This document shows positions 36,054 to 58,787 of a DNA stretch of 64,000 bases, piece after piece. Numbering within the stretch: the first letter of the stretch is position 1; the number at the start of each line of letters is the position of its first letter. This DNA is from Halobaculum sp. MBLA0147. Lineage in GTDB: Archaea > Halobacteriota > Halobacteria > Halobacteriales > Haloferacaceae. Location of the stretch: NCBI RefSeq assembly GCF_041361345.1, contig NZ_JBGKAD010000001.1, forward strand, positions 1,426,001-1,490,000. The letters run 5' to 3'. The notes under the pieces were generated by a model, which ran no database searches, was not told the DNA's origin, and saw nothing but the letters and a program-made list of their open reading frames with translations. A program made the position numbers and the translations under genes.

Positions 36054-36681
36054 GGCTCACGCGTCACCGACCCAGAGCCAAAGTCTGTCGGTTTCCGTCG
36101 AGTTCCCCGTAGGAATCAAGAACAGTGGTGCCGTTCTGGGTGAGCGTCATCCGTACGGACACTGGGTCTATCGGCGTGGCGATTGGCGAGGGTCTTGACA
36201 TCGGTCAATGCAGCAGCCCGGACGTGTCAGTCAACACTGCGACATCTCGATCCGGGATGAGCGCCGCCTTGAGTTCCTCGGAGCTGATGTCACGAGTAAC
36301 CCCCTACACGATCGGTGTACTCTTGTGGGTCACTTCTCTCGTCTTGTCCGAGTTGTCCAACGTCCCAAGGACCGTTGATCACAGCCGCGAAAATAAACCC
36401 ATGTCGACATTTTCGACCGCTGTGTGAACAACTTCCTCGTCAAAGAGCTATCACCGTGGGTTCAGGTGAAGTTCGCTTAGCGGTCGGGCAACTCACATCT
36501 GGGTCGATCGTCTCGGCGTTTTCTAGTTGGATGTGAACAATGCTTTCGTGACAACCACATGGTGGGGCTACGCCACCACACGTTGGACGGTTCAACCCTC
36601 GATCACACGACGTATCATCTTACAAACATCGGCCATGTGGCAGGACAAGTCATAACTGTTGTCGCGGACGACGACGAAAAT
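36054..36681. other. Divergent intergenic region, promoters; no firm gene
   Basis: About 630 bp between the epimerase and the GlmU-like gene. AT-richer than its flanks in places. A TATA-like CATAACTG (36650-36657) fits the GTG at 36682. The sequence TGTGAACAA occurs twice (36425 and 36533 regions). Reading frames here are short and not protein-like. It could be the scar of a lost mobile element, but no transposase remnant or matching ends were identified. Confidence 0.4.
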
Positions 36682-37874
36682 GTGAATATTGAATCCGCGA
36701 TTGTCCTCGCAGCCGGCGAGGGAAACCGCCTCCGGCCACTGACCGAGTTCAGACCCAAGCCGATGTTGCCGGCGGCGACGCAACCGATCCTCCAGCACGT
36801 CTTCGACGGGTTGATCGACGCCGGCGTCGACGACATCCACGTCGTCGTCGGCTACCGGCGTGACCGCGTCCGGAACTACTTCGGCCCGACGTACCGCGAC
36901 CGGACGCTCACGTACCACACTCAAGAGACACAACTCGGGAGCGGTCACGCACTGTTGCAGGCCGCCGGCGCGGTCGACGACGACTTCCTCGTCGTGAACG
37001 GCGACGAGGTGATTCCGTCGACGATGGCGGAACGCGTGATCGACGCCCACGACCGCGAGAGCGTGGCGACGCTGGCCGTCGTCGAGAGCGACGAGCCACG
37101 CGAGTACGCCGGCGTCGAACTCGACGACGATCTGGTGACGACAATCGATGAGCGACCCGAATCCGGGGAGTACCGGTTGTTCAACGCCGGCGTGTACGCG
37201 TTCGGGCCGTCGGTGTTCTCCGAGATTCAAAACACCCCGCAGACCGACGGAGAACGGGCGCTCACCGACACGGTCGTCGAACTGGTCGAGCGGACCGGGA
37301 ACGTCCGTGGCGTCCGGGTCGAGAGTCCTCGTGTCGCGGTGACGTACCCGTGGGACCTGTTGCGGGTGGCGAGTGGCGAACAGACGGGCGTCCCGCGTGA
37401 CGTCCGACGACGCGTCGACGGGGCACACGTCGACGGGAGCGCGATGCTCCACGACGACGCCGTCGTGCGGCCGCCGGTCGTCGTCGGGCCGGACGCGGTC
37501 GTCGAGGCGGGCGCGGTGGTCGGGCCCGACACGGCGGTCGGGCGCAACGCGACGGTCGCCGCGAACGCGACGGTGCGTGGCTCCGTGATCGACGACGACA
37601 CGCGCGTCGGCGAGGCGGCGACGCTCGTCGACACCGTCACCGGGACCGACGTCGAGATCGGTGCCGGCGTCACCGTTCCCGGCGGGCCAGCCGACGTCCG
37701 GATCGGGACGACGGTGTACGAGGGGCGCCAGTTGGGTGCCGTCCTCGCGGACCGCGCGACGGTCGGCGGCGGCGCGACCGTCTGTGACGGGGTCTTGATC
37801 GGTCCCGAGGCACGGGTCGCCGCGGGGAGTACCGTCCGGACGAACGTCGCGGCACGAACGGAGGTGACTCAGTG

Positions 37875-37875
<1 letters not shown>
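36682..37875 (+). CDS. GlmU-like sugar nucleotidylyltransferase with beta-helix domain
   Basis: 397 residues: nucleotidylyltransferase domain (V-L-A-A-G-E-G-N-R-L-R-P-L-T, F-R-P-K-P-M-L-P, V-V-N-G-D-E-V) followed from ~residue 250 by hexapeptide repeats (V-V-R-P-P-V-V-V-G-P-D-A-V-V-E-A-G-A). Overlaps GlmS by TGATG, so UDP-GlcNAc synthesis is the natural role: GlmS makes GlcN-6-P, a mutase isomerises it, and this protein uridylylates (and may acetylate) it. The repeats are shorter than in the gene at 27975 and lack its N-F-G-A-G-T-T-V-A-N block, so acetylation is uncertain. GTG 36682 has a TATA-like element at ~28 nt. Confidence 0.82.
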
Positions 37876-39680
<1,805 letters not shown>

Positions 39681-39852: not shown

Positions 39853-39874
39853 CCTCGAAGGGTAGATGCCCTCC

Positions 39875-40975
39875 ATGAGGATCGACGGGACACCGATCGG
39901 TGTCGAGGAAGGTGTGTACTACATTGCTGAGGCCGGTGTTAACCACAATGGGGACATCGAAATCGCAAAGAAGTTGATCGACGCGGCTGCCGACGCCGGG
40001 GCGGACGCGGTCAAGTTGCAGACGTTCTCTGCGGACGACCTCGTGGTCGAGTCGGCCCCGAAAGCCGAGTATCAGAAGCAGCACACCGACGAGTCACAGT
40101 ACGAGATGCTCCAGAAGTACGAACTGGACAGAGCAGAACACGAGGAACTGCTCGACCACGCCGAGGAGTGCTCGGTAACGCTGCTCTCGACGCCGTGCGA
40201 CGGGGAGAGTGTCCGGCTCTTGGACGAACTGGACCGCCCGGCTATCAAGATCGGGTCGGGTGACCTGAACAACCACCCGATGCTCGAACAGATCGCGGTG
40301 GCCGGACGGCCGATGATCGTCAGCACCGGGATGAGCACGATGCCGGAAGTCGAGCGAGCGGTCGAGGTGATCCGGGAGGCGAACCCGGACGTGCCGCTCG
40401 CGCTGCTTCACTGCACCAGCGAGTACCCCACCGCGGTGGAGGACGTGAACCTGCGGGCGATGGAACGGATGGCCGAGCAGTTCTCCGTTCCTGTCGGACA
40501 CTCAGATCACACCACCGCCGTCGAGACGCCAGCGATGGCTGTGGCCGCGGGTGCCTGTATCGTCGAGAAGCACTTCACACTGGGTAGACGCCTTCCCGGT
40601 CCCGACCACGAGGCCTCGCTCGAACCAGACGAACTACGCGAGTCGGTCCGGTTCGCTCGGGCCAGCGCGCTCGCCCGTGGGAGCAGTGTCAAACGGCCCA
40701 CGGCCGGCGAGTGGACCACCCGGACACGCGTCCGGAAGAGCCTCCACACCAGCCGCGAACTCTCCCCCGGCGAGTCGCTGTCGCGGGCGGACCTGACGGT
40801 GGTCCGTCCTGCCGACGGCCTCCCGCCCGGGGCACTCGACCGTGTCGTCGGACGAACGGTCACGGAGAGAGTCGAGCGAGAGGCACCGGTGACCGCCGAC
40901 GTCGTCGAGGGAGACATCGACCTCTCGGGCCTCCCGTCGCTCGACGTCGACCGACGGGAGCAGACAGATGAGTAG
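39875..40975 (+). CDS. Nonulosonic acid (sialic/legionaminic-type) synthase
   Basis: 366-residue NeuB/LegI family enzyme that condenses phosphoenolpyruvate with a 6-carbon N-acyl-mannosamine-type sugar. TIM-barrel domain first (Y-I-A-E-A-G-V-N-H-N-G-D, D-A-V-K-L-Q-T-F, I-K-I-G-S-G-D-L-N-N, G-H-S-D-H-T, E-K-H-F-T-L-G-R), then a C-terminal SAF/antifreeze-like domain (~residues 275-345; T-R-V-R-K-S-L, then P-P-G-A-L-D-R-V-V-G-R). K-L-Q-T and the L-G-R-x-L-P-G-P-D-H signature are typical. ATG 39875 fits the TATA spacing; ATG 39866 is in frame. Its end overlaps the 2-epimerase gene (ATGAGTAG). The product could be sialic, legionaminic or a related acid; sequence alone does not decide. Confidence 0.93.
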   Translation: MRIDGTPIGVEEGVYYIAEAGVNHNGDIEIAKKLIDAAADAGADAVKLQTFSADDLVVESAPKAEYQKQHTDESQYEMLQKYELDRAEHEELLDHAEECSVTLLSTPCDGESVRLLDELDRPAIKIGSGDLNNHPMLEQIAVAGRPMIVSTGMSTMPEVERAVEVIREANPDVPLALLHCTSEYPTAVEDVNLRAMERMAEQFSVPVGHSDHTTAVETPAMAVAAGACIVEKHFTLGRRLPGPDHEASLEPDELRESVRFARASALARGSSVKRPTAGEWTTRTRVRKSLHTSRELSPGESLSRADLTVVRPADGLPPGALDRVVGRTVTERVEREAPVTADVVEGDIDLSGLPSLDVDRREQTDE

Positions 40976-42128
40976 ACGTATCACCGTTGTCACCGGGACG
41001 AGAGCTGAGTACGGACTCCTATCCTCGCCGATGGAGGCGATCCGACGGCACCCGTCCCTCGAACTGACCACTGTCGCCACCGGAATGCACCTGTCGGAGA
41101 CGTACGGACACACGGTCGACGAGATCGAAGCGGACGGGTTCACCGTCGACAGAACCGTCGAGACCCTCCTGAACAGCGACACCGGACGCGGCATGGCGAA
41201 GTCACTCGGACTGGGAATCAACGGGACTGCCGAGGCACTCGCGTCTCTGGACACGGACGTGACGCTGGTCCTCGGCGACCGCGACGAGGCACTGGCCGGC
41301 GCGGTGGCCTCGGCGCACATGAACGTCCCAGTCGCACACATCCACGGTGGGGACTCGATGCACGGTGCGACCATCGACGACAGCATCAGACACGCGATCA
41401 CCAAGTTCGCACATGTCCACTTCCCAGCCTCGGATCGGAGTGCGGATCGGATCGAACAGCTCGGCGAAGAGTCGTGGCGGATCACGACGGTCGGGGCACC
41501 CGGGCTAGACGCGATACTGGCCGACGAGTACGAGTCTGGCGAGACCGTCCGCTCGAAACACGGACTCAACGACGACGCCCCGCTTATTGTCGTCGTCCAA
41601 CATCCGGTCACGACACAGAGCGAGCGAGCGGCCGACCAGATGCGAGCGACACTCAAGGCCGTCTGCGACCGTGACGCGTCGGTCGTCGTGATATATCCGA
41701 ACTCGGACAGCGGCTCTGCAGGGATGATCGAGGCCCTCGACTCCTTCCAAGACGAAGTCCGAGATTTCAAGAGCTTGCCTCGCGGAGAGTACCTCGGACT
41801 GCTGGACGCAGCCGATGTCCTCGTCGGGAACTCTTCGAGCGGAATCATCGAGGCTCCGTCGCTCGATCTCCCGGTCGTCGATGTCGGGCCACGCCAAGAC
41901 GGCCGGCAGCGAGCCGACAACGTCCTCTCCGTCCCGCACGACCGGTCCCAGATCGCTCGGGCCGTCGAGCAGTGTCTCGAGGGAGGCGACGTCCGAGAGC
42001 GGGCCGTCGACTGTGACAACCCGTACGACCGGGGAGGGGCGGGAGACAGGATCGCCGAAGCGCTCGCTGCCGTCGACCTCGACGAGGAGTTGTCGACGAA
42101 GCGGTTCGTCGAACGAGACACGCGGTGA
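40968..42128 (+). CDS. UDP-N-acetylglucosamine 2-epimerase (hydrolysing), NeuC/LegG type
   Basis: 386-residue GT-B-fold enzyme that inverts C2 of a UDP-HexNAc and hydrolyses it to the free mannosamine-type sugar used by the synthase encoded just before. Motifs: V-T-G-T-R-A-E-Y-G-L-L (residues ~7-17), V-L-G-D-R-D-E-A-L-A, H-I-H-G-G-D-S-M-H-G-A-T-I-D-D-S-I-R-H-A-I-T-K, and V-G-N-S-S-S-G-I-I-E-A-P-S. The H-G-G-D and T-K-x-A-H-V-H-F order is the hydrolysing NeuC/LegG class rather than the WecB class. Translationally coupled to the synthase; convergent with the acetyltransferase gene. Confidence 0.93.
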   Translation: MSRRITVVTGTRAEYGLLSSPMEAIRRHPSLELTTVATGMHLSETYGHTVDEIEADGFTVDRTVETLLNSDTGRGMAKSLGLGINGTAEALASLDTDVTLVLGDRDEALAGAVASAHMNVPVAHIHGGDSMHGATIDDSIRHAITKFAHVHFPASDRSADRIEQLGEESWRITTVGAPGLDAILADEYESGETVRSKHGLNDDAPLIVVVQHPVTTQSERAADQMRATLKAVCDRDASVVVIYPNSDSGSAGMIEALDSFQDEVRDFKSLPRGEYLGLLDAADVLVGNSSSGIIEAPSLDLPVVDVGPRQDGRQRADNVLSVPHDRSQIARAVEQCLEGGDVRERAVDCDNPYDRGGAGDRIAEALAAVDLDEELSTKRFVERDTR

Positions 42129-42177: not shown

Positions 42178-42813
42178 TCAGAGCTCTCCCGAGGTGACTT
42201 CCTCGATGTCCCTCACCTTCTCCGCGGGCGTTCCGACGACGACGGTGTTCGACGGCACGTCGTCGACGACCGTCGCGCCGGCACCGACGACGACATCCGA
42301 TCCGATAGAGACGTCCGGTCTGACCGTCGATCCGAGTCCAACGAAACTGTTCGCCCCGATCTCGACGTCGCCGCCGAGGGTCGTGTTCGGCGCGAGCGTC
42401 ACGTTCGGCCCGACCGTGGTCTCGTGTCCGACGTAAACGCCCCCGTCTAGGAGTACGTTCGCGCCGAGCGTCACCTCCGCACAGACGTAACACCCAGCCG
42501 AGACGTACACGTGAGACAGCGTGTCCGTCTCGACGTCCACCACTGCGTCTCGGTCGACGAAACTCCGACACTCTCCACCGGTCGTCGTTATCTGGTCGGC
42601 GATCAGGGCACGGACGCTGCCGACGCCGTTCGCGACGATCCAGTCGTGATCCTCCAGCACGTCGTCCTCCGGGCGACGCACCTCGTGTCCGCGGTGTGTC
42701 GTCCCGAGGACGCTCTCGTCGTCGTCGACGACCATGTCCACTGGCTCGCCGCTCCGAGCGAGCGCCTCGATCACAGTCTTCGAGTGACCACCCGCACAGT
42801 AGATCCCGACCAT
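42178..42813 (-). CDS. NeuD/LegH/PglD-like sugar O/N-acetyltransferase
   Basis: 211 residues. An N-terminal Rossmann-like PglD_N domain (G-I-Y-C-A-G-G-H-S-K-T-V-I-E-A) is followed by a left-handed beta-helix of hexapeptide repeats (V-T-L-G-A-N-V-L-L-D-G-G-V-Y-V-G-H, then V-V-V-G-A-G-A-T-V-V-D-D-V) ending in V-V-G-T-P-A-E-K-V. Such proteins acetylate an amino- or hydroxyl group of UDP-sugars or nonulosonic acids. With the upstream PLP aminotransferase it could N-acetylate the 4-amino sugar (LegH role) or O-acetylate the acid (NeuD role). Last gene of the minus-strand module. Confidence 0.85.
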   Translation of the reverse strand: MVGIYCAGGHSKTVIEALARSGEPVDMVVDDDESVLGTTHRGHEVRRPEDDVLEDHDWIVANGVGSVRALIADQITTTGGECRSFVDRDAVVDVETDTLSHVYVSAGCYVCAEVTLGANVLLDGGVYVGHETTVGPNVTLAPNTTLGGDVEIGANSFVGLGSTVRPDVSIGSDVVVGAGATVVDDVPSNTVVVGTPAEKVRDIEEVTSGEL

Positions 42814-42881
42814 ATGACCGCTCTCCCGTCTCTCGGAGACATACCTCTGTCGGTCCCTCGTCCGGTGATCGTCACCCGCGA

Positions 42882-43577
42882 TCACAGCAACTCTCGGACC
42901 AACGACAGCTCCCACGGTTCGTCGATGTCGAACGACCGTTCCGGCGGCATCTCGTAGGCCACCGTGTCAGGCGTATAGAACGACTCGTGCTCGCGCCACG
43001 CCTCGACGGTCGCGGCGAACACGGCTCCGTTCGGGTGGTAAAGCTCCGTCAGTTCCTGACTCCGGTCGGTCTCCGCGTCGAACAACGACGGTGGGTCGAA
43101 CTGCTCCGAGACGCGTCCGTCCTCACCGATGGTCACGGCCCACTGTGGCGGCGTGTGGTACGCGGAGACACTGACTGCACTCTCCGCGTCGGCGTCTAGT
43201 AACGACCGAACCGTCCCGTCGATGTCCTCCGTGTCCCTCAGTGGTGTCGTCACCTGCAACAGAGCCACGACGTCGAATGACTTGCCGGCGTCTGCCGCCC
43301 AGTCGAGTGCGTGCGTGACCACGTCACTCGCGGCACTCTCGTCGGTCGCCAACTCGGCCGGTCGGCGGAACGGGACTGATCCACCACTGGCCTCGGCGAC
43401 ACGCTCGATCTCCTCGTCGTCGGTCGAGACGATGGCCTCGTCGACGGTCTCCGCCTCGGCCGCCTGCTCGACCGTCCGCGCGACAAGCGGTTTCCCACCG
43501 ACCTCCCGTACGTTCTTCCGGGGGACACGCTTGGACCCGCCACGCGCCGGGATCAGTCCCAGGACAGACGTACTCAT
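42882..43577 (-). CDS. CMP-nonulosonic acid synthetase (NeuA/LegF type)
   Basis: 231-residue acylneuraminate cytidylyltransferase: I-P-A-R-G-G-S-K-R-V-P-R-K-N (residues ~9-22) is the CTP-binding signature, followed by I-V-S-T-D-D-E-E-I, V-A-L-L-Q-V-T-T-P-L-R (catalytic Q-x-T-S/T-P-L-R block) and the D-I-D-E-P-W-E-L end. Activates the nonulosonic acid to its CMP form for a glycosyltransferase. Only 6 bp after the CBS-SDR gene. No dedicated sialyltransferase was recognised in the window. Confidence 0.94.
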   Translation of the reverse strand: MSTSVLGLIPARGGSKRVPRKNVREVGGKPLVARTVEQAAEAETVDEAIVSTDDEEIERVAEASGGSVPFRRPAELATDESAASDVVTHALDWAADAGKSFDVVALLQVTTPLRDTEDIDGTVRSLLDADAESAVSVSAYHTPPQWAVTIGEDGRVSEQFDPPSLFDAETDRSQELTELYHPNGAVFAATVEAWREHESFYTPDTVAYEMPPERSFDIDEPWELSLVRELL

Positions 43578-43583
43578 TCTGTC

Positions 43584-44987
43584 CTAGATCGTGTCTTCGA
43601 GCGTCCGATAGTTGCTGTATCGATCACTCGTGTAGTCGTCGAACCGGTCGTCGGCGATCGCTTCGCCGATCGCCTCGCTGCTCTCGCCGATCGTGTGCTC
43701 CGTCTCGTACCCTAGGACGCGTTCGATCTTCGAGAAGTCGACCTGGTAGCTCCGTTCGTCCTCCTGCTCTCTGTCGAAGTCGATCTCGGCGTCTGGGTAC
43801 CGCTCGGAGATGATGTACCCGATCTCCTCAATCTGGTAGTTCTGTTCGTTCGATCCGACGTTGAACACCTCGCCGGAGACATCCTCTATCGGGGCCTCGA
43901 TACAGTCGATGTACGCCTGTGCGGCGTCTGCGACGTGGACGTTCGGTCGGTACTGCTTCCCACCGAAGATCGGGATGGTCCCCTCGGTCTGTGCCTTCGC
44001 AGAGAGGATGTTGACAACGAGATCGAACCGCATCCGTGGGGAGAGGCCGTAGACGGTCGCCATACGGAGGATCGTCGGCGAGAAGTTCTCGTCGGACAAC
44101 TCCGTGAGCGCGCGTTCCGACTGAATCTTCGACTTCGCGTACAGCGAGACCGGGTTCAGCGGTGACTCCTCCGTCAGGAGCGTCTCCGGGTCGTCTGCCT
44201 GCCCGTACACGCTGCAGGTGGAGGCGAAGAGAAACCGGTTGATCTGGTGGTACTTCGCGATCCGAGCCGCCAGTGCGGTCGCGTGGTAGTTGACCTCAAG
44301 TGTCTCCTGTGGATCGATGCTGGAGGCAGGATCACCGACCAGCGCGCCGAGGTGTACAGCAGCGTCTGCGCCGTTCATAGCGTCCACCAGGTCCTCGATA
44401 GACCGCATGTCGCCTTCGATGAACGTGAATCGATCGTCCCCAAAGAACTGCTCTATCCCCGTATCCTCGTACAACAGGTTGTCGAGCACCCTGACGTTGT
44501 ACCCCTGTGAGAGGAGTTTCTCACACAGGACAGAGCCAATGTAACCCGCACCGCCGATCACGAGTACGGTGTCGACACTGGTCTGGTTCATTCCGCTGGC
44601 CGAACTGTCGATCCGTGAAGCGTTCTCGTCAAGGAACGTGATGTCGACAACCTCGTCACCGTCAAGGACAGGGACAGTCAGCGTCCCAAATTCGTCTGTC
44701 TTCTGTTCAATCTGTTGTATAGAGACCTTCTCGGACAGGTCGGTATCGTCCCAGTCTGCTTGGATGGCTATTGGATCTGCGGTGGCTACCTCCGATACGG
44801 CCGTTGAGAGACTCTGTCCAGATAGAATCCCTCGGCGGATGTCGCCGTCGGTCGCCGTCCCGCGAAGTTCACCGTCTGCGTCGGTGATAAACACGATGCC
44901 GAGCCCCGACTTGTCGATCGTCTGCATTGACTCCCGGAGGCTGGTGTCCGGCCGAACACAGACATCCGACAGCGTGATGTTGTCCAT
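43584..44987 (-). CDS. CBS-domain pair fused to an extended SDR (nucleotide-sugar epimerase-like)
   Basis: 467 residues. Residues ~1-122 form two CBS domains (V-C-V-R-P-D-T-S-L-R-E-S-M, I-V-F-I-T-D-A-D-G-E-L-R-G-T-A-T-D-G-D-I-R-R as the first repeat; L-T-V-P-V-L-D-G-D-E-V-V-D as the second). From ~138 comes an NAD-binding SDR: V-I-G-G-A-G-Y-I-G-S (144-152), A-S-T-C-S-V-Y-G (255-261), Y283-A-K-S-K287, and a tail S-D-R-Y-S-N-Y-R. The SDR part resembles epimerases of LPS-type loci, not 4,6-dehydratases (no T-D-E-V-Y-G). In bacterial legionaminic loci CBS pairs are fused to a nucleotidylyltransferase (PtmE); fusion to an SDR is unusual. Own TATA-like GATAAGTTGG overlaps the end of the upstream aminotransferase gene. 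Confidence 0.85.
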   Translation of the reverse strand: MDNITLSDVCVRPDTSLRESMQTIDKSGLGIVFITDADGELRGTATDGDIRRGILSGQSLSTAVSEVATADPIAIQADWDDTDLSEKVSIQQIEQKTDEFGTLTVPVLDGDEVVDITFLDENASRIDSSASGMNQTSVDTVLVIGGAGYIGSVLCEKLLSQGYNVRVLDNLLYEDTGIEQFFGDDRFTFIEGDMRSIEDLVDAMNGADAAVHLGALVGDPASSIDPQETLEVNYHATALAARIAKYHQINRFLFASTCSVYGQADDPETLLTEESPLNPVSLYAKSKIQSERALTELSDENFSPTILRMATVYGLSPRMRFDLVVNILSAKAQTEGTIPIFGGKQYRPNVHVADAAQAYIDCIEAPIEDVSGEVFNVGSNEQNYQIEEIGYIISERYPDAEIDFDREQEDERSYQVDFSKIERVLGYETEHTIGESSEAIGEAIADDRFDDYTSDRYSNYRTLEDTI

Positions 44988-45013: not shown

Positions 45014-46153
45014 TTATCGCTTTTCGTTTTCGAGTGCCGTCCCGACTGCATCTACGATCCGATCGGTACTCTCCACGGAGAGATTCGGGTGCATCGGGAG
45101 AGACAGGACGGTCGAGGCGACGATTTCGGTCGTCGACAGGTCCCCCGAAGGACATTCTTCACCTCGGTAGTAGTCTGTGGCGTGGACAGGTGGGTCCCAG
45201 TACACTTTCGAACTGATCCCGTGGTCGTCAAGCACCTTCACGACATACTCTCTGTCTACCCACTCGTCGAACTGGACGGTGTACAACTGGTAGACGTGGC
45301 GACCGTTCTCCGGTTGTGGATGCGGAGTGACACCTTCGATGTCCTCGAATCCGTCGTTCAACCGCATCGCGACATCGCGACGTCGCTCGATCAGATCCTC
45401 TACCTTGTCTATCTGTGCACATCCGATGCTGGCGACGAGATCAGACATCCGAAGATTCGAGCCCAGGCTCGAATACTGTCCTGTTCCAGCCGACTGGAAG
45501 TACTCGCCGCTGGCCCGTCCGTGGGACCTGAACAGTTCGGCTTCGGCGGCGATGTCGTCGTCGTCGGTGATCACGGCACCGCCTTCTCCGGTCGTGATGA
45601 CCTTGTTCTGACAGAAACTGAGTGCGGCGACGTCTCCGAACGTCCCGAGGTACTCTCCCTCGTGGGTGGCACCGAACGTCTCGGCGGCGTCCTCGACGAG
45701 TGGAACATCGTGTCGATCCGTCACACGAAGGAGTCCCTCTAGATCCCCTGCACGGCCGTAGGGATGGACGGTGAGGACGGCGGCGGTGTCTTCGGTGATC
45801 TGTGCCTCCACGGCCTCTGGATCGAGTGCGAACGTCTCTGGATCGACATCGGCGAATACAGGTTCTGCCCCAGTTATTTTCACTGAATTTGCAGTAGCTA
45901 TAAAAGTGAAAGACGGGACGACGACCTCGTCTCCGTCACCGACGCCGAGGCTACGGAGCGCGACGACGAGGGCACTCGTTCCAGAGTTGACCGTGACGGC
46001 GTGTTCCGTTCCGAGGTACTCCTCGATCTCGTCTTCGAACTCGGAGACGTACGGTCCTTTCGCCCAGTACCCACCACGCGTGATCGAATCCACAGCGTTC
46101 TTTACGTCTTTCTCGTCCCACGCTATCTCGAACAACGGGATGTCCTCTGGCAC
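45014..46153 (-). CDS. DegT/DnrJ/EryC1 family sugar aminotransferase (LegC-like)
   Basis: 379-residue PLP-dependent aminotransferase of the sugar-modifying DegT/ArnB group. PLP lysine is Lys184 in L-S-F-C-Q-N-K-V-I-T-T-G-E-G-G; N-S-G-T-S-A-L (56-62) binds cofactor phosphate; E-D-A-A-E-T-F-G (154-161) holds the ring-nitrogen Asp. Aminates a 4-keto UDP-sugar, giving a 4-amino sugar. First gene of the module LegC-like, CBS-SDR, CMP-synthetase, acetyltransferase. GTG 46153 is set by a clear TATA box 26-33 nt upstream. A 4,6-dehydratase to make its keto substrate was not found in the window. Confidence 0.9.
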   Translation of the reverse strand: MPEDIPLFEIAWDEKDVKNAVDSITRGGYWAKGPYVSEFEDEIEEYLGTEHAVTVNSGTSALVVALRSLGVGDGDEVVVPSFTFIATANSVKITGAEPVFADVDPETFALDPEAVEAQITEDTAAVLTVHPYGRAGDLEGLLRVTDRHDVPLVEDAAETFGATHEGEYLGTFGDVAALSFCQNKVITTGEGGAVITDDDDIAAEAELFRSHGRASGEYFQSAGTGQYSSLGSNLRMSDLVASIGCAQIDKVEDLIERRRDVAMRLNDGFEDIEGVTPHPQPENGRHVYQLYTVQFDEWVDREYVVKVLDDHGISSKVYWDPPVHATDYYRGEECPSGDLSTTEIVASTVLSLPMHPNLSVESTDRIVDAVGTALENEKR

Positions 46154-46178
46154 GGTTATCAGTTGGTCAGTCCGGAGG

Positions 46179-46186
46179 TATATAAC
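46179..46186 (-). promoter_or_regulatory. TATA box of the LegC-like operon
   Basis: GTTATATAC on the minus strand, 26-33 nt before GTG 46153. The remaining ~310 bp to the next gene at 46504 hold no convincing frame; a TATA-like TCATTTAC (46474) serves the plus-strand gene. Confidence 0.6.
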
Positions 46187-46503
46187 TCCCCACATTCTCC
46201 GGAATACAGTGTTCCGGTGTGGCCGTCTCGACGGCGAACGGTCCGCGGTCTCCCCGGACAGTGCCGCCACCGGCCCGACCCCACGGCTGGTGAGTGGCTA
46301 CCGGACGACTTGCAGTGCTCGGAGAACAACGACTCCGTGAACAACCTGCTCGCAGACGATAGCTGAATACACGACGATTCTGTTGTGACAACAAAATAAC
46401 AGTCGATCTCTCCGATCCGACCCGCCTGTCTACGTCTCTATCCGATCAGGTGGTGACTACACCCTCCGAAGACTTCATTTACACCTGCAGGCAAGTGGTG
46501 CTC

Positions 46504-46989
46504 ATGGCCGACGGTTCCCAGACAGTATCGTGGTCGACTCTCTTGGTCGTTCTCTGTGTCCTCACGGTCACGGCCGCTGCCCCCGTCGTGGGGGAGATTT
46601 CTGGGCGACTGACAGGTTCGCCGTCGCAACCGCTTCAGGCGAGTGACGCGACGATCAGCGGCGATATGCAGATACAACGGAGTAGTTTCGGCGCGGAAAC
46701 GTACCACTTGAGTGAGATACAGATACGTCTATCCGACCTGAGCGGTGAGGGTGTACTCGTCGTACAGATTGGCATCCCCAAATTGAACAGATACGTGCTG
46801 ACTTGGAAACGAAACGTGAGCGTCTCGACGCCGACGGACAGGCTGGTGCGGTACCAACCACTGGTGGAGCTTCACCCGGATCGGGTCACCGACGACGTGT
46901 ACGGGGCAAGTATAACGGTCCGGCTCCGGTCGGACGGCGCGACGACACTCATCGCAGAGCGAAACATCCGCATGGAGGTAGTCGGCTGA
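46504..46989 (+). CDS. Small exported or membrane-anchored protein
   Basis: 161 residues. An N-terminal hydrophobic segment (residues ~10-30, L-L-V-V-L-C-V-L-T-V-T-A-A-A-P-V-V-G) reads as a signal or anchor; the rest is a beta-rich, soluble ectodomain (E-T-Y-H-L-S-E-I-Q-I-R-L, G-V-L-V-V-Q-I-G-I-P) ending in E-R-N-I-R-M-E-V-V-G. No family recognised. Its stop overlaps the start of the large membrane protein (TGATG), so the two are co-translated and probably form one complex. ATG 46504 has a TATA-like element at ~28 nt. Confidence 0.65.
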   Translation: MADGSQTVSWSTLLVVLCVLTVTAAAPVVGEISGRLTGSPSQPLQASDATISGDMQIQRSSFGAETYHLSEIQIRLSDLSGEGVLVVQIGIPKLNRYVLTWKRNVSVSTPTDRLVRYQPLVELHPDRVTDDVYGASITVRLRSDGATTLIAERNIRMEVVG

Positions 46990-49043
46990 TGTTCCGCCTC
47001 GTGATAGCGAAGGTGACAGACAGTCTCACCACCGGATGGCTCCGCGGTGGGACCACCGACGAAGACGACGTAGAGCGGTCGATTCGGAGGCTGAAGTCCG
47101 CCTTGTTCTCGGACGACCTCGGCCTCTTGGTATTCCTCACCTCTGTTCTGTTCTTCACCCTCGTCCTCCGACTAAGCGTGTCGATAAACGACTCTTACGC
47201 CGTCTCCAACACGTTACTAGCTGTCTCCGACGGGACTGTGTTCCTCACAGACTTCGTCCTCGGCCCGGAGTCTGGCGCACAGCCGGGAATTTCGCGGACA
47301 GAGACACGACTGGTGGGACGCAACTACGGCCAAGTTTTCCTGACTCTTCCGGTGTACTTGCTACTCTCTGGACTCTCGTTGGTGTTCGAACTTCACGCCG
47401 TTCTCCTCGGGATGTGGGCACTGCTACTGTACGCAACCCTCATTGTTGCTGCTCGATACACGGGGGTTGGTAGTGCGCCGAAAGTTGGGATCCTCACGAT
47501 AGGGGTGCTGGTCGCGAACGTTGCTGTCGCGACTCCGGTATCGGAGCGTCTGACGAGTTACATCTCGCTCCAGCTCACTACGATGATCGCGGCAGGTTTT
47601 ATTGGTGTTGTACTGTACAAATTGTTCCGTCGAGAGCTGGGTGACCGTACCGCCGCGATGGTTGGACTACTCGGAACTATCGGGACACCCATCGGCTTCT
47701 TCAGTACGATCCCGAAGCGACACACGTTCTCGGCGTTGTTTCTCCTTTTAGCGATGTTTACTCTCTACCGTTCTGGAGTGGTGGAGAACGATCACAGACG
47801 ACATGTCTACAAGATGTGTGCGTACGCGACGGTGGGTGCAATGACCTGGATACACGCCCCAGAGGGATTCATCCTTCTGATCAGCGTCGGGATCGCCGAT
47901 CTCACCACACCAGGGTCACTCCGGCCGAAGGATATTGCCTTCTCGGCCACCGGGCTCTGCCTCTCGTTGGTGCCGTTCTTTCTGACCAACACCCTCATCT
48001 CCGGCAATCCACTCCAGCCTCCGAGACTGTTGGAGGGGTATAAAGGGGAGGGGTTGGAAGCACCACCAGAACCCGGTACAGGTGGCGAACCGGGTAACGG
48101 GACGCCCAAAGGTGGCACACCAGGGGACGGAGAGTCCGAAGGTGGCACACCGGGTCCCCCCGGTGGGGAAGACCCCTCTTCGCCCGGAACTGGTATCGTC
48201 GAGAGGTTCCGATCGGTACTGCTCGGTGTTACTTCACTCGTTTACCGTCTAGTCCTGACGACAGTAGAGCTCGGTGAAAAGGTGCTCTCGATGGTCGGAT
48301 CCCTCGCTGAGATCGTCGTAGGACGGATCGGTTCTTCCCTATCGATCGTCTACGATGGGGACAGACTCTGGAAGCTGTTCGGTCGTCGTGGATTCATGGA
48401 ATCGGTTCCGGTCGGGAAGCATCGACCGGTGAATCTCTCCCTGACAGAGTCGATGCCGGCACTGGGTCTACTCGTGGGCATCGTATCCCACGGGACTCGG
48501 ACAGGCCGGACGGACCTCCGACGGTGGCGTCACTCGCCGTACTTTCCGGCTGACATGGCTGCAGTGGTCTACTCTGGGTTACTCCTCCTGCTTGCACTCC
48601 CATCGCTTCCCATTCATACGAGCCTCACCGTGCGGTATCTACACCCACTGTACGCGGTTGGACTCTACGCGGTCGTCCGGCTGCCACTCGGTCGAAGTCT
48701 GTTGAAAGAGTACCCTCGTCACCTGTGGCACTCGTATCTCGTCTCGGTAGCTGTCTTCACGGCGGTGTCTACAATTCTCGTCCCCCAACTCGTGACCGTC
48801 CCAGGTGAAGCAGTCCAACTGTACGCGTCGGTCGCCTTTGGCTTGGCCGTCGCGTTGACACTCTTCACTGCCGGAGTATCATTCCGTCGGTCGCGACGCG
48901 GGACGATTGCGATTGCAATTCTCACCGGTAGTGCCTTCGGTCTCGTGACGACGTACCTCGTCTGTGTGAGTCTGGTCGTGTTCGGGCCGGAACCGAACGC
49001 AGTTCCGATCGTCGAGGAACTGTCGAAAGTCGTTGGGCTTTGA
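46989..49043 (+). CDS. Large polytopic membrane protein with Gly/Pro-rich loop
   Basis: 684 residues. About nine transmembrane segments in the first ~345 residues, then a soluble low-complexity loop (~349-402) rich in Gly, Pro, Thr and Glu (repeated G-G-T-P-G), then four or five more membrane segments. The loop before it, L-I-S-G-N-P-L-Q-P-P-R-L-L-E-G-Y, resembles the N-P-containing loop of GT-C glycosyltransferases, so a lipid-phosphate-sugar transferase is one possibility; a polymerase or ligase is another. Translationally coupled to the small exported protein before it. Function unknown. Confidence 0.6.
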   Translation: MFRLVIAKVTDSLTTGWLRGGTTDEDDVERSIRRLKSALFSDDLGLLVFLTSVLFFTLVLRLSVSINDSYAVSNTLLAVSDGTVFLTDFVLGPESGAQPGISRTETRLVGRNYGQVFLTLPVYLLLSGLSLVFELHAVLLGMWALLLYATLIVAARYTGVGSAPKVGILTIGVLVANVAVATPVSERLTSYISLQLTTMIAAGFIGVVLYKLFRRELGDRTAAMVGLLGTIGTPIGFFSTIPKRHTFSALFLLLAMFTLYRSGVVENDHRRHVYKMCAYATVGAMTWIHAPEGFILLISVGIADLTTPGSLRPKDIAFSATGLCLSLVPFFLTNTLISGNPLQPPRLLEGYKGEGLEAPPEPGTGGEPGNGTPKGGTPGDGESEGGTPGPPGGEDPSSPGTGIVERFRSVLLGVTSLVYRLVLTTVELGEKVLSMVGSLAEIVVGRIGSSLSIVYDGDRLWKLFGRRGFMESVPVGKHRPVNLSLTESMPALGLLVGIVSHGTRTGRTDLRRWRHSPYFPADMAAVVYSGLLLLLALPSLPIHTSLTVRYLHPLYAVGLYAVVRLPLGRSLLKEYPRHLWHSYLVSVAVFTAVSTILVPQLVTVPGEAVQLYASVAFGLAVALTLFTAGVSFRRSRRGTIAIAILTGSAFGLVTTYLVCVSLVVFGPEPNAVPIVEELSKVVGL

Positions 49044-53298: not shown

Positions 53299-55113
53299 TC
53301 AGATATCCAGGTACGCACGTGACAGAACGAGCTCGATATTGAGCACTCGGATCGGCATATACACGTCTGGATAGGACGTGAAGACCGGCGAGTCGGCAGC
53401 CTCGAACACCTCCCGGTACAACTTCTCAATCGACCGGCTGTCGACTCCGAGTTCGTTGAGCAGGACCGACCTCGACGGGTCAACCAGTCGTTCGTTGCGC
53501 TTCAGAAGTGTCGACCGCTTCGACTCCGACCACGACCTGTCCGGAAGAGATCCGATAGACTCGTGGTACGGTTGATTGAGTGCGGACCGAGTCTCGTCGT
53601 ATATTTCCTTCTTCGGGTGTCTCGCTCTGTCCATCCTGTTCTCGTTGGACAGGAAGTAGGACACGGACGGCCCCCAAGAGAACGGTGCCTCGACAGGACT
53701 ACCCGTAGACGCCGGGAACTTCGACAGGTGGGCCAACGTGTTTTGCCCATTCATGATATACATCAGTCTCCTAATCGTCTCGTACGTGTTTGTCCCCGCA
53801 TCAATCCGGAGGAACCGTTCGATTTCTTCCCGTATGAAATCGATATCGAACGACGAGTCAAGTTCCGTGATCGTCGCCTCGGACACTACGTCTGAGTTGA
53901 ACCGCAGCTCCGAGCCGACGTAGTTCGGCCGCCCGGACGTCAGTAGTCCAGTGAAGATTCCAGCCTCGTCCGGGTCGGTGCTGTACTTCTCACTGTAGTG
54001 GTAGTTCCGCGGGTTGTACTTTTTTTCTGGGAAGTCGTCTCCGCGTACTCTCCGGCCGAGTCGGTACAGCCGCGGGGCGAGAAGCAGGTACAACCGACGG
54101 AACAACTCGTTCTCGGTGTAGTTGCGGGTGAACGGGAGGTTCACCCCGAAACGCGCGAGAGAGCCGAACATCTGGCTCACCGACTGCTCCGAGAGACTCT
54201 GATAGGTCCTCTGATTCCGCATCTTCAACATCGACAGGTTGTCGGCGTTCTGACCGTAGATGAACACCTCCTCCTCGTCCGCGTACGACTCCGAGACGTA
54301 GTACGTCGGGGAGTACGGCGGGACGATGTCCTGTGACATCAATTCCTCTATCCGCTCGGCTGATCCCTCGTCCAGCGGCCTCGGAGAGTCCACGACATCG
54401 TGATCGAACCCCAGCTGCTCGGCCATCCTCCGACCGGCCACGGGCGCAGGGTCGTATCCGGGGCCGAAGTCGAACGTCACCGCTCTGAACGAGATCTCCG
54501 ATTCGTTCAGGAAGCATCCTAACGCCGTACTGTCGGCACCGCCCGAGAGACACAGTATCACCTCACGGTCTGCGAGCGCGTCGAGGAGCATCCCCTTCGC
54601 CTCCTCGAAGCTCTCGGGGGACCCCTCACCGGAGATGTACGTCTGCATCTCCCACCCGTGCCCATTCCCCGTCACCACGACGCCGGGCGGAATCCGGCTC
54701 ACTTGCTCGAAGACGGTCGACAGTGGCGGTCGTTCCTCCAGATGTCTGGCGACGTACGACCGGTATCGGTTCAGGTCGACCGACAGTTCCGCCGGGGGAA
54801 CCTTCGATACTGCCTCCGACAGCGTGTCGGTGATGTGTAGTTCCTCACCGCAGTCAACTAAGTGCCCACCCGAATATGCCGTCGACGTGACCACCGTGAC
54901 TCGGTCACCGGACGCATCGATCAGGAGGTAGTTCCCACACGACTGGGTCCGCTCTGAGGCCAGAAAGTCCTCTCGAGAGTCGCGGTACCGGTCGATCAGC
55001 TGCTCTTCGGTCGCGTGATACGGTGTCCCGACGACAGCGTACTCGCCGTCGACCGTGCTGTTCTGTCGTCGCTCGCCTTCGTACGAGACACTTAGGTCGG
55101 CTTTGTCTATCAT
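53299..55113 (-). CDS. Asparagine-synthase-like protein lacking the glutaminase cysteine
   Basis: 604 residues. The C-terminal two thirds are an asparagine-synthetase/ATP-pyrophosphatase domain: P-loop L-C-L-S-G-G-A-D-S-T (residues ~187-196), then Y-G-Q-N-A-D-N-L-S. The N-terminal ~170 residues have the outline of a class II amidotransferase domain (C-G-N-Y-L-L-I-D, T-S-T-A-Y-S-G-G) but the product begins M-I-D-K, so the nucleophile Cys2 is absent and glutamine hydrolysis is not expected. Probably activates a carboxylate (e.g. a uronate) for amidation or ligation using another amine source, or needs a partner. Same strand as, and 88 bp downstream of, the capsule-type gene. Confidence 0.78.
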   Translation of the reverse strand: MIDKADLSVSYEGERRQNSTVDGEYAVVGTPYHATEEQLIDRYRDSREDFLASERTQSCGNYLLIDASGDRVTVVTSTAYSGGHLVDCGEELHITDTLSEAVSKVPPAELSVDLNRYRSYVARHLEERPPLSTVFEQVSRIPPGVVVTGNGHGWEMQTYISGEGSPESFEEAKGMLLDALADREVILCLSGGADSTALGCFLNESEISFRAVTFDFGPGYDPAPVAGRRMAEQLGFDHDVVDSPRPLDEGSAERIEELMSQDIVPPYSPTYYVSESYADEEEVFIYGQNADNLSMLKMRNQRTYQSLSEQSVSQMFGSLARFGVNLPFTRNYTENELFRRLYLLLAPRLYRLGRRVRGDDFPEKKYNPRNYHYSEKYSTDPDEAGIFTGLLTSGRPNYVGSELRFNSDVVSEATITELDSSFDIDFIREEIERFLRIDAGTNTYETIRRLMYIMNGQNTLAHLSKFPASTGSPVEAPFSWGPSVSYFLSNENRMDRARHPKKEIYDETRSALNQPYHESIGSLPDRSWSESKRSTLLKRNERLVDPSRSVLLNELGVDSRSIEKLYREVFEAADSPVFTSYPDVYMPIRVLNIELVLSRAYLDI

Positions 55114-55201
55114 CGTTTTGTCCTGTGGCCGCGCTACTCCGCAGTGAGTCCTCGTTGGGAACCTGTACCGAGACACGAGTGTCGGGACGGTTGCACTGTA
55201 A

Positions 55202-56815
55202 TCACTCCTCTCTCATCCCGTAGTAGAGCTTGTTGTCGTACGACTTGAAACTCTCTGCGAGGTTCTGTAACTGTGTGTCGTCTCGAATCTCGTCGTAGGA
55301 TTCGATCGTCAGGAATCGGTCCTCCTCCGCTTCGGTGAGTCCCTGCGGGTGGAGACTCTCGAAGTGAACCGGTCGGTCGATGAAGAAGTTGTACGTGTAC
55401 TTCAACGCTCGTAGACGAGCCGCCTCCGACAAGTCGAGTGTCGCCGGGTCCGTCGTGAGGAGGTCGAAGTACTCCTCTCTCGTACTCGCATCGTGTGTGA
55501 ACCCCTTGCCGGTGTAGTGGGCGTCCCCGACTGCGATGACGGGGTTCCCCTTGTACGCACTTTCTAGACCCGCAGTCGATGTCATCGCCAGTGTGACGTC
55601 CGTGAAGTCGATCAAATCGTACGTGTTGATCTCCGTCTCTGGCGGTAACACCGTCACACTCGACGGCAGTGAATCGTACCTGGCGTCGATGAGGCTCCCG
55701 ACACCTTGGTTGGTGCCGCGGACTTTCTCTGCCGGGTGTGTCTTGACGATCAGCTGATCGTCGCGGTCCTCGAACGCGTCGATCGTCTCGAACACCCACT
55801 CGTTGTGATCTTCGAACACTCTGGAGACACGCTTCGCCACCGCAGCGTCCCACAGGATGTGTGTAAACAGCACGTAGACGTTGTGCTCCCGTGTGTCGAG
55901 ACCGAGTTGTGTGGCGATGTCGGTCCCGCGTCTGGCGTACTGCTGATAGGTCGCAGACTCGAATCGTTCGGCCATGAACGAGTCTAGTTCCTCTAGTTGG
56001 TCGTCATCCAAGTCTCTGGCTTCGACCTCTTCCCAGCCCTCTTCGGACATATAACTCACGAGCGGGCGGTCGCCTTTGTTGAACAGGAAGCCGTTTCCCC
56101 ACCCGAAGACTGGATCGGCGACACCGAGGATGTTCTTGTCGTGTGCGTCCAGGTACTCGAAGGACCCTCTCGCCGGGAGACCCGGGCCCATGTTTATGAC
56201 CGCGTAGTCGTAGCCGAAGCGTCGGTTTGCCCCCTGTGCGGCCTGCCACGCGATCTCTCCAGCTCTCTGGTACTGTTCGAGGAGTCGCCGGTGGTAGGGG
56301 TCGTCCTCGTCCGTCTCGGCGATCCTGAGTTTCCCCTTGACAGACCCCTCCGCGTACCGCGACAGTCTGTCGCTGACTTCTTCCGGGACCTCCGATCCGC
56401 TCTCGGCGAGTTCTCCGACACCGTGGTGCTGTATCCCGAAAACGTCTGCCAACTTGTCCGACTTCTTGACGCACTCCACACAGTCCGCCTCACTGTTTTT
56501 TTTGCCGCATATCGGGAGTGCCTTGTCTCCGAAAAGAAAGATTGACCCGATCCCGTTCTGGTAGAGTGCGTGAGCCAGCACAGCTTTGAATACGGTCCGG
56601 TGGTTCTCTGGGGCAAAGTCTGGGAACAGAGCGACGTGTTCGGTCTGTGAGTTGTCGATCTCCGGGAAATCGATACGTTCTATCTCCCGCCGAATCGAAG
56701 GGTCCAGCGGCCGAAGACCGTAGTAGACCTCCGACAGGTACCGTTCAGTCGCTTTCGACTGGAGAACGGGACCGAGAATATCCTTGATCTCTTTGACGAG
56801 AGAGTCAACTGCCAT
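55202..56815 (-). CDS. Capsule polysaccharide synthesis-type (GT-B-like) protein
   Basis: 537 residues, resembling capsular polysaccharide biosynthesis/export proteins (Capsule_synth, KpsS-like) that add sugars to lipid or glycan primers. Seen: V-Y-V-L-F-T-H-I-L-W-D-A-A (~residues 325-337), Q-L-I-V-K-T-H-P-A-E-K-V, I-N-T-Y-D-L-I-D-F-T-D-V, and T-S-T-A-G-L-E-S-A-Y-K-G-N-P-V-I, the usual nucleotide-sugar-binding C-terminal half. The N-terminal domain contains a C-G-K-K / C-V-E-C cysteine set that may bind zinc. ATG 56815 has a TATA box (GCATATAC) at ~27 nt. Divergent from asnB. Confidence 0.68.
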   Translation of the reverse strand: MAVDSLVKEIKDILGPVLQSKATERYLSEVYYGLRPLDPSIRREIERIDFPEIDNSQTEHVALFPDFAPENHRTVFKAVLAHALYQNGIGSIFLFGDKALPICGKKNSEADCVECVKKSDKLADVFGIQHHGVGELAESGSEVPEEVSDRLSRYAEGSVKGKLRIAETDEDDPYHRRLLEQYQRAGEIAWQAAQGANRRFGYDYAVINMGPGLPARGSFEYLDAHDKNILGVADPVFGWGNGFLFNKGDRPLVSYMSEEGWEEVEARDLDDDQLEELDSFMAERFESATYQQYARRGTDIATQLGLDTREHNVYVLFTHILWDAAVAKRVSRVFEDHNEWVFETIDAFEDRDDQLIVKTHPAEKVRGTNQGVGSLIDARYDSLPSSVTVLPPETEINTYDLIDFTDVTLAMTSTAGLESAYKGNPVIAVGDAHYTGKGFTHDASTREEYFDLLTTDPATLDLSEAARLRALKYTYNFFIDRPVHFESLHPQGLTEAEEDRFLTIESYDEIRDDTQLQNLAESFKSYDNKLYYGMREE

Positions 56816-56839
56816 TTGGCGGTATTGTGTCGAACTGAC

Positions 56840-56847
56840 GTATATGC
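56840..56847 (-). promoter_or_regulatory. TATA box of the capsule-type gene
   Basis: GCATATAC on the minus strand, 25-32 nt before the ATG at 56815. The divergent asnB start at 56952 has an AT-rich stretch (CAAAAGGTATAG, about 56916-56927) at a matching distance. Confidence 0.55.
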
Positions 56848-56951
56848 TTATCGGAGTCACGGATCGGATGCTCACCGGGGTGTTCCCTCTCACGTCCAGT
56901 GTCCTCACCCTATCAAAAGGTATAGAACCAGCGCCCTTTTTGTGTCGGTGC

Positions 56952-58787
56952 ATGTGTGGCATCATCGGAGAGATATCTTCCGAGCCGGTCGATCTATCCA
57001 CCTTCTGTCGTATGCGTGATGAACTTTCACATAGAGGTCCCGACGGGTCTGGCCTCTACACTAGCGCGGACGAACGAGTCGCACTCGGGTTTCGCCGTCT
57101 CGCGATCATCGATCTGAGTGACGACGGGATGCAACCGATGGCGAACGAAGACGAGTCTTTGTATCTCTTGTTCAACGGTGAAATCTACAACTACCAGTCG
57201 CTTCGCTCGGAACTCGTCGACGCCGGACACGTCTTCTCCAGTGAGACGGACTCGGAAGTCATCCTCCACGGTTACGAGGAGTGGGGTGAAGCAGTGCTCA
57301 ACCGACTCCGAGGGATGTTCGCCTTCGCCATCTGGGACGAGTCCGAGGGTTCTCTCTTCGCAGCTCGTGATCCATTCGGTATCAAGCCACTGTACTTCTA
57401 CGATGGCGAGGATCGATTCGTGTTCTCCTCGGAATTAAAAGGTATCCTCGCCGACTCGTCGATCGATCGAACGCTCTCAACACAGGGCGTCCAGAGCTAC
57501 CTGAAGTACGGGTACGTCCCGGCACCGCTGACGATATGGGAGAACATGTCGAAACTCGTACCGGGGGAGTACCTCCGGTACGACGGCCACACGGTCGAGA
57601 CCGAGTCCTACTGGTCCCCGACGGACTACCTCGACGAGCGATCACCACCGTACCCAGAGGCGGTCTCCGAACTTCAACGGATCCTCAACGACTCGGTAGA
57701 TCATCACCTCGTGAGTGATGTTCCCCTGAGTGTACTCCTCAGTGGTGGTGTCGATTCGAGCACGATAGCGGCACTCGCGGTCGACGAGGCTTCGGGTCTG
57801 TCCGCGTTCTCAATGGGGTTCGACGGCGGGGACGACGAGCTCAATGCGGCCAGAGAGGTCGCCTCGTTGTTGGGTGTCGATCAGACTCGAGACGTTCTGG
57901 ACTCGGATGCACTCGAGTCGCTCCTCGATGAGGTGTTCTACCACTTCGACGAACCACTCGCCGATACGTCTATATTCCCGACGTTTCTGCTCATGGAGAG
58001 CGTCAGTGACCACTTCAAGGTAGTGTTGTCTGGGGACGGCGGTGACGAACTGTTCGCCGGGTACAACTGGTACGACCGGTACGCACGGTACAAGCGGTTC
58101 AACCGACTCTCTCCGATCTTCTCTCTCGTGACCGAGGGACTGGATTCGCTCTCCAGTGATGTCGGGATTTCGCTCGTCCAGTCGCTCAAGTGGCGCGCCT
58201 CTCTGGCCAGCAAGAGTGGTCTCGACCAGTACGTTTCGGCGAAGGGTGCGACCTTCTCCTCCGACGAATTGACCACGCTCCTGGACGGTCGATTCGGGCG
58301 AGACACCGACACGACGGCAGTTGAGCGATACGAAGTCGAGTGGTCGACTATCAAAGGGGCACAGTGTTTCGACATGCGGACCTTCCTGCCCAGTATCCTC
58401 ACGAAGGTTGATCGCGCGAGCATGGCGAACTCCGTCGAAGCACGCGTTCCGTTGCTCGACCGGGAGGTGGCCGAATACGCCCTGTCACTCGACGGGAGCT
58501 ACCACTACAATCGGGGCGAGAAGAAGCGACTCCTCCGGTCCGTCTCGCGTGAGATCCTCCCGGACAGGGTCGTCGACCGACCGAAGTCTGGGTTTGGGGC
58601 ACCACTCGAATCGATGGACTTCTTTAGCGAGAACATCGACGCCCTCGAAGCGTCTCGGGCCGCGGAGGACGGCATCTTCGATCAGAACACACTCGACTCG
58701 TACTTGACCGACGACTCACCGCGCCAGAAGCTGTTCCGACTCCTGATCTTCGAACTGTGGTACCGACGGTGGCGTCAGACTGACTGA
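56952..58787 (+). CDS. asnB: Asparagine synthase (glutamine-hydrolysing)
   Basis: 611-residue AsnB-type amidotransferase with both domains intact. N-terminal glutaminase: Cys2 (M-C-G-I-I-G-E), R-G-P-D-G-S-G, F-N-G-E-I-Y-N-Y. ATP-dependent synthase domain: V-L-L-S-G-G-V-D-S-S, L-S-G-D-G-G-D-E-L-F-A-G-Y and P-K-S-G-F-G-A-P-L. In polysaccharide loci such proteins often amidate sugar carboxylates (e.g. WbpS-type in Pseudomonas O-antigen) instead of making free asparagine; both are possible here. ATG 56952 is fixed by the requirement for Cys at position 2. Confidence 0.93.
   Translation: MCGIIGEISSEPVDLSTFCRMRDELSHRGPDGSGLYTSADERVALGFRRLAIIDLSDDGMQPMANEDESLYLLFNGEIYNYQSLRSELVDAGHVFSSETDSEVILHGYEEWGEAVLNRLRGMFAFAIWDESEGSLFAARDPFGIKPLYFYDGEDRFVFSSELKGILADSSIDRTLSTQGVQSYLKYGYVPAPLTIWENMSKLVPGEYLRYDGHTVETESYWSPTDYLDERSPPYPEAVSELQRILNDSVDHHLVSDVPLSVLLSGGVDSSTIAALAVDEASGLSAFSMGFDGGDDELNAAREVASLLGVDQTRDVLDSDALESLLDEVFYHFDEPLADTSIFPTFLLMESVSDHFKVVLSGDGGDELFAGYNWYDRYARYKRFNRLSPIFSLVTEGLDSLSSDVGISLVQSLKWRASLASKSGLDQYVSAKGATFSSDELTTLLDGRFGRDTDTTAVERYEVEWSTIKGAQCFDMRTFLPSILTKVDRASMANSVEARVPLLDREVAEYALSLDGSYHYNRGEKKRLLRSVSREILPDRVVDRPKSGFGAPLESMDFFSENIDALEASRAAEDGIFDQNTLDSYLTDDSPRQKLFRLLIFELWYRRWRQTD

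Follow-up and report, generated by a model that had tools for sequence, protein, structure and literature searches.

What does a protein that joins a pair of CBS domains to a nucleotide-sugar SDR do in a haloarchaeal operon for nonulosonic acid (NulO) synthesis? The question is raised by a gene of Halobaculum sp. MBLA0147, lying in what we call the window: the whole 64,000-nucleotide stretch that was analyzed (positions 1,426,001 to 1,490,000 of contig NZ_JBGKAD010000001.1, or G000:C1:1426001-1490000), from a genome of 4.3 Mb that is 97.4% complete. The fusion comes second in a compact cluster of minus-strand genes, ordered aminotransferase, 26 bp, CBS-SDR fusion, 6 bp, CMP-NulO synthetase, and NeuD-type acetyltransferase, the last of which begins within the 3′ end of the synthetase gene (Table 1). 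Facing this group on the plus strand are the GlmU-like, GlmS-like, NeuB, and NeuC genes; the GlmS-like gene groups with genes adjoining other haloarchaeal NulO clusters. The first-pass annotation, made from the sequence alone, had placed the fusion in a NulO operon directly upstream of the CMP-synthetase gene, and the Pfam and NCBIfam assignments of the neighbors and the 6-bp gap bear this out.

Table 1. The CBS-SDR fusion and the surrounding NulO genes, in window coordinates
Feature	Position	Strand	Description and evidence
CBS-SDR fusion gene	43584..44987	minus	467 aa, single frame without internal stop; ATG at 44987
CBS pair	44622..44987	minus	residues 1-122; CBS1 ~9-58, divergent CBS2 ~62-120; Pfam CBS, AF2, Foldseek
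CBS1 T-D-G-D, residues 46-49	44841..44852	minus	T-x-x-D nucleotide-site motif
Flexible linker, residues 123-138	44574..44621	minus	pLDDT <50 at 129-136
Extended SDR domain, residues 139-440	43668..44573	minus	Pfam Epimerase; best PDB match Cj1427
Active-site T257-C258-S259	44211..44219	minus	catalytic Thr without dehydratase acid/base pair
Catalytic Y283-x3-K287	44127..44141	minus	conserved in alignment of fusions
LegC/PseC-type sugar aminotransferase	45014..46270	minus	DegT_DnrJ_EryC1 E 7e-114; best NCBIfam matches PseC, LegC
CMP-NulO synthetase, PseF/LegF-like	42882..43577	minus	PseF TIGR03584 E 3e-50
NeuD/PglD-type sugar N-acetyltransferase	42178..42912	minus	TIGR03570 E 9e-44
NeuC/LegG-type hydrolyzing 2-epimerase	40968..42128	plus	TIGR03568, 404.7 bits, above cut-off
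NeuB/LegI-type NulO synthase	39866..40975	plus	TIGR03569, 401.7 bits, above cut-off
GlmS-like glucosamine-6-phosphate synthase, precursor supply	37872..39680	plus	name read from translation alone
GlmU-like nucleotidyltransferase + hexapeptide domain, UDP-GlcNAc supply	36559..37875	plus	Pfam NTP_transferase, Hexapep

That the CBS-SDR fusion itself is real is near certain. Its frame, whose stop codon ends at 43584, carries a Pfam CBS domain at residues 9 to 54 (E 9e-6, above the cut-off) and a Pfam Epimerase domain at residues 141 to 378 (E 1e-45), and because the full-length architecture recurs in five other genomes at 55 to 60% identity, it cannot be put down to chance read-through. The original reading of a single fused CBS pair and nucleotide-sugar SDR thus stands, and structure prediction, proposed as a check at the time, agrees with it: in AF2 models built from shallow input alignments (12 and 4 sequences), the whole fusion has a mean pLDDT of 86 with a floppy linker at residues 129 to 136, and the CBS half alone folds as a CBS pair (pLDDT 81.5) and matches solved CBS pairs in Foldseek at E 5.6e-9. 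A fusion created by sequencing or assembly was rejected, as the architecture recurs in 25 other genomes. Two separate proteins, divided by a break or internal start near Met133, had been named as grounds for refutation and were likewise rejected: conservation is lowest across residues 121 to 138 (mean pairwise identity among homologues of 0.15, compared with 0.54 for CBS1, 0.33 for CBS2, and 0.67 for the SDR), Met133 itself varies, and none of the homologues begins or breaks off at this point. A longer 523-aa ORF starting at 45155 is unlikely because it would run into the aminotransferase gene; of the five homologues, four have their start codon near 44987, and in L036, the remaining one, a Met stands at the equivalent position.

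Searching 394 haloarchaeal genomes with the window's fusion protein recovered the CBS-SDR fusion in 26, six with an intact CBS half (the window included) and 20 with a degenerate one; the architecture is therefore not unique, and the 20 degenerate copies lie outside any NulO locus. The five intact relatives (L036-L040) are full-length, and the intact set comes from three GTDB families (f1, f3, and f4), whereas the degenerate relatives (L041-L060; ~47 to 54% identity) all belong to f4, a family shared by one intact-CBS genome. Plasmid copies of the degenerate type occur in Haloterrigena, Natrinema, and Natronorubrum, which marks f4 as Natrialbaceae, an example being L205 on pHTUR04 of Haloterrigena turkmenica. 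No additional fusion appeared in the 171 genomes of the window's own family that were examined, and across the 394 genomes, no further protein matching the CBS half below E 1e-6 was an SDR. A scan of genome contigs with the single fusion protein gave no match; an alignment-based scan with two narrow patterns returned unfused SDRs and three named genomes with the fusion (two Halomarina and one Halobium). In the SDR tree, all fusions form one clade (99/98), within which the 20 degenerate proteins are a nested clade (100/100) and the intact ones a basal grade, a topology from which it is most simply read that the fusion arose once and that its CBS half decayed later.

The aminotransferase gene lies directly upstream of the fusion in 25 of the 26 genomes; in G370, the fusion directly precedes neuB, and the aminotransferase, with an identity of only 35%, is farther off. 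The degenerate clade retains the aminotransferase and the SDR without neuB, mostly with a gene for a 128-aa protein alongside and with shikimate kinase and chorismate mutase genes in the vicinity, and this retention means that the pair must serve something else too. Unfused relatives were also seen. An SDR ~40% identical on a Klebsiella variicola plasmid (NZ_CP103421.1, 7001-9170; L203) adjoins a DegT-type aminotransferase, by which the aminotransferase-SDR pair may be of old origin and shared with bacteria. Unfused haloarchaeal SDRs (L061-L068) that share ~46 to 50% identity with the SDR half are found close to a distant aminotransferase, in surroundings that resemble other glycan clusters, and no NeuB or NeuC gene was recognized within those stretches.

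The SDR half has the signatures of its class: the GGAGYIGS Gly-rich NAD motif, T257, and Y283-x3-K287 are conserved, and the catalytic Thr/Ser-Tyr-Lys is kept in all 26 fusions, including those with a degenerate CBS half. The acid/base pair of NDP-sugar 4,6-dehydratases is missing. Dehydratases with an assigned acid and base carry a pair (DE, DK, or SE) beside the catalytic Thr/Ser (Table 1 of PMC8987622); at this place the window's protein has T-C-S, with T or S as the first residue across the fusions, and its TCS..Yx3K fits the epimerase/oxidoreductase pattern and not any acid/base-assigned dehydratase of that table. Scores against LegB (TIGR04180; 93.5 bits versus a cut-off of 475) and GalE (TIGR01179; 118.7 bits versus 262.3) fall well short of both NCBIfam thresholds, and what follows the CBS pair is an SDR, not the nucleotidyltransferase domain of PtmE-like proteins. 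No acid/base pair was found at the active site of any extended SDR of the window's genome; among the stronger matches in the other five intact-fusion genomes, the dehydratase-type SDRs were an RmlB-like protein encoded 57 kb away from the fusion in G260 and a GMD-like protein in G370.

The top solved relative of the SDR by sequence (2e-43), profile (2e-58; next match, 5e-36), and Foldseek is Cj1427 of Campylobacter jejuni, an NAD-dependent GDP-D-glycero-D-manno-heptose C4-dehydrogenase (PDB 6vo6/6vo8), with an identity of only 32 to 34% and a target TM of 0.90 to 0.94. Cj1427 likewise has no dehydratase acid/base, and the two proteins have an SPRMR-x-DL-x-VN segment in common; unlike the fusion, Cj1427 is without a CBS domain and acts on GDP-heptose. 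We know of no aminotransferase partner adjacent to Cj1427. The enzyme oxidizes C4 of GDP-heptose by a 2-oxoglutarate-dependent ping-pong reaction (PMC10680097), and some WbpB enzymes, which stand next to WbpE, also reoxidize NADH with 2-oxoglutarate (PMC10622841).

A comparison of gene neighborhoods indicates which enzyme the fusion stands in for. Ten other haloarchaeal NulO clusters (L157, L160, L162-L167, L169, and L170) have a PF02719-type SDR (317 to 344 bits in the two tested), with the active site STDKASNP(T/A)SVMGATK (STDKSSNP in L170 and STDKAAQPTSTMGATK in L160); the TDK..Mx3K pattern is that of PglF/WbpM-type UDP-GlcNAc 4,6-dehydratases (PMC8987622), of which SpsM begins the synthesis of UDP-linked legionaminic acid in B. 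subtilis (PMC7439481). These dehydratases occupy the same operon position as the fusion and have the same aminotransferase partner, which in nine of the ten clusters shares 53 to 60% identity with that of the window, yet they belong to another SDR branch and are without CBS domains. No PF02719-type dehydratase scored above 55 bits in any of the six intact-fusion genomes, compared with 266 to 731 bits in three controls, and the aminotransferases of both partner sets fall in one clade (100/100) that is not split into two groups. Since the dehydratase is missing from the fusion genomes and the aminotransferases are unsplit by partner, the CBS-SDR takes over the dehydratase's position.

One way to take a dehydratase's place is to be one: the fusion could be a noncanonical 4,6-dehydratase replacing PglF/SpsM, with the CBS pair regulating it and an ordinary 9-deoxy legionaminic-type acid as its product. 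Its exact positional match and the unsplit aminotransferase tree would both follow, and Cys in the acid position has a precedent in the T-C-E of TunA (PMC8987622). We nevertheless regard this reading as unlikely, in that T-C-S offers none of the Asp/Glu/Lys acid/base residues present in all assigned dehydratases of PMC8987622 and Cj1427, the closest relative, is simply a C4-dehydrogenase. Less probable again is a GalE-like 4-epimerase, with the keto sugar for the aminotransferase coming from another enzyme. The triad pattern is compatible with this, and the second solved relative is the UDP-GlcNAc C4-epimerase 6wjb; against it, the window's genome yielded no other dehydratase, and the SDR is paired with an aminotransferase in nearly all fusions as well as beside an unfused bacterial relative. 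The label "epimerase-like" given in the first-pass annotation is probably wrong on two grounds, the replacement of a 4,6-dehydratase and the closeness to Cj1427 in sequence, profile, and fold.

Our best explanation, which we give an even chance, is that the fusion is a CBS-regulated NDP-hexosamine C4-dehydrogenase that catalyzes the first committed step in NulO synthesis, with its CBS pair binding the end product; what we infer here are the reaction, how the cofactor is recycled, the product and the ligand, and the direction in which the CBS pair regulates. GlmS and GlmU would supply UDP-GlcNAc, and the SDR would oxidize its C4 with a tightly held NAD, leaving a 4-keto sugar for the adjacent PLP aminotransferase to turn into a 4-amino sugar. 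With glutamate as the assumed donor, the 2-oxoglutarate released by the aminotransferase may reoxidize the NADH of the SDR, a route known from Cj1427 and from certain WbpB enzymes. The NeuD-type enzyme would then N-acylate the 4-amino sugar, NeuC release the 2-epimerized sugar, NeuB condense it with PEP, and the PseF/LegF-like enzyme convert the product to CMP-NulO; the CBS pair would bind an end product, with CMP-NulO or a similar cytidine nucleotide as the likeliest, and tune the SDR. Because a pathway without a dehydratase leaves the 6-hydroxyl of the sugar in place, the NulO probably keeps its 9-hydroxyl. The fuller proposal, in which a CBS-fused, 2-oxoglutarate-recycled C4-dehydrogenase and the aminotransferase make up a dehydratase-free pathway to a 5,7-diamino-3,5,7-trideoxy NulO (9-OH) under CMP-NulO feedback, is tentative and less likely than not. 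Weighing against the C4-dehydrogenase explanation are the low identity to Cj1427 and that enzyme's GDP-heptose substrate, the Cys in the acid position, the other dehydratase-type SDRs in G260 and G370, the gene arrangement in G370, the retention of the aminotransferase-SDR pair where neuB is absent, and the poor conservation of CBS2. We know of no description of a 5,7-diamino-3,5,7-trideoxy nonulosonic acid with a 9-hydroxyl.

The CBS half bears its conservation unevenly. CBS2 is below Pfam detection but is conserved among the homologues and folds as part of the CBS pair; its T-x-x-D is not conserved, and the TDGD of CBS1 is invariant in all six intact fusions. Position 49 is Asp in these six and Arg or Gln in all 19 readable degenerate fusions, the count omitting L052, which is broken in this region, probably by an assembly fault. 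Among fusion genomes, the integrity of the CBS half tracks neuB: every intact-TDGD genome has neuB on the contig of the fusion, 0.09 to 17 kb away, whereas none of the 20 degenerate-CBS genomes of the haloarchaeal class sample has neuB at E 1e-30 (Fisher p 4e-6, a value that ignores kinship). Since the 20 degenerate fusions form one clade, this association reflects few independent evolutionary events. The decay of the CBS half across one clade, with the catalytic domain kept, and the weak conservation of CBS2 could also mean that the pair is a structural or oligomerization element or an evolutionary leftover. We find this very doubtful, given that TDGDIR is invariant across the intact members of three families, far above the surrounding conservation. 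Read from the sequences, the CBS pair is very probably part of a regulatory switch at a committed step.

What such a switch would sense is suggested by its relatives. Both the closest solved and the closest annotated CBS pairs belong to arabinose-5-phosphate isomerases: NCBIfam matches include KpsF/GutQ, the profile search gave 3k2v (E 1e-10) along with 3fna and 4o9k, and 3k2v and 4o9k are within the top three by Foldseek. Arabinose-5-phosphate isomerase stands early in the CMP-Kdo pathway, and 4o9k is, as we take it, a complex of a CBS pair with CMP-Kdo. As CMP-NulO is also a CMP-activated ulosonic acid, it is a plausible candidate ligand and the one that we favor, by analogy; in animals, the entry enzyme GNE is subject to feedback by CMP-sialic acid. 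CBS pairs whose ligands are known mostly bind adenosine compounds, and the Foldseek matches include solved pairs with AMP, ADP, or ATP, both of which would suit an energy sensor (an AMP/ADP/ATP or SAM-type ligand) on an oxidoreductase without CMP-NulO feedback. Energy sensing is a credible but rather unlikely alternative: the closest CBS pairs come from Kdo-pathway enzymes, and the integrity of the site follows neuB. The first-pass annotation had left energy and CMP-sugar sensing side by side, and the isomerase-like CBS pair and the decay of the site without neuB favor CMP-sugar sensing of the two.

The KdsD/KpsF/GutQ enzymes (3k2v, 3fna, and 4o9k) resemble the fusion in the LG..TDGD-RR motif of their CBS pairs and in their early place in a CMP-ulosonic acid pathway, and they differ in that the pair follows a sugar isomerase domain at the C terminus and belongs to the Kdo pathway. 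The PtmE-like CBS-nucleotidyltransferase (L107) has a CBS pair with TDGDIRR that is 34% identical to that of the fusion over the whole pair, but its catalytic half is a nucleotidyltransferase rather than an SDR. In the legionaminic cluster of Halorubrum sp. PV6, genes are ordered LegC-LegB-LegF-LegG, with an SDR at the place of the fusion; the annotated LegB, compared by its description, is not called a CBS fusion (PMC6137143). Further CBS fusions were met in other contexts: L106 and L112 (G467 and G471) combine the same kind of pair, with SDGDIRRG, and a cupin that, from its sequence, resembles mannose-6-phosphate isomerase type II, and L109 and L110, from the haloarchaea G007 and G027, are KpsF/KdsD-like isomerase + CBS proteins (the isomerase half again by sequence reading). 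To our knowledge, Kdo is not expected in haloarchaea. Together, this suggests a common TDGD CBS module placed on unrelated nucleotide-sugar enzymes: a nucleotidyltransferase, an isomerase, a cupin, and an SDR.

The CBS-SDR is thus a real, conserved, and apparently undescribed architecture: as the first-pass annotation had supposed, the papers searched contain no description of such an enzyme. If our explanation is true, it would represent a new enzyme architecture, with an archaeal NulO pathway feedback-controlled at its entry, and would predict a NulO that may be undescribed; a self-limiting route toward a surface sugar not yet described is thereby hinted at. Fusions with an intact CBS half and neuB, set against degenerate ones without neuB, offer a ready comparison for what the CBS pair senses.

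Elsewhere in the window, a gene at 46803-49043 (+) encodes a predicted 746-aa membrane protein with a Gly/Pro-rich insert and without a Pfam match. A divergent asparagine-synthase-like protein (53299-55176, -) is encoded near a complete glutamine-dependent asparagine-synthase-type enzyme (56784-58787, +), and between these two lies a capsule-synthesis-like gene.
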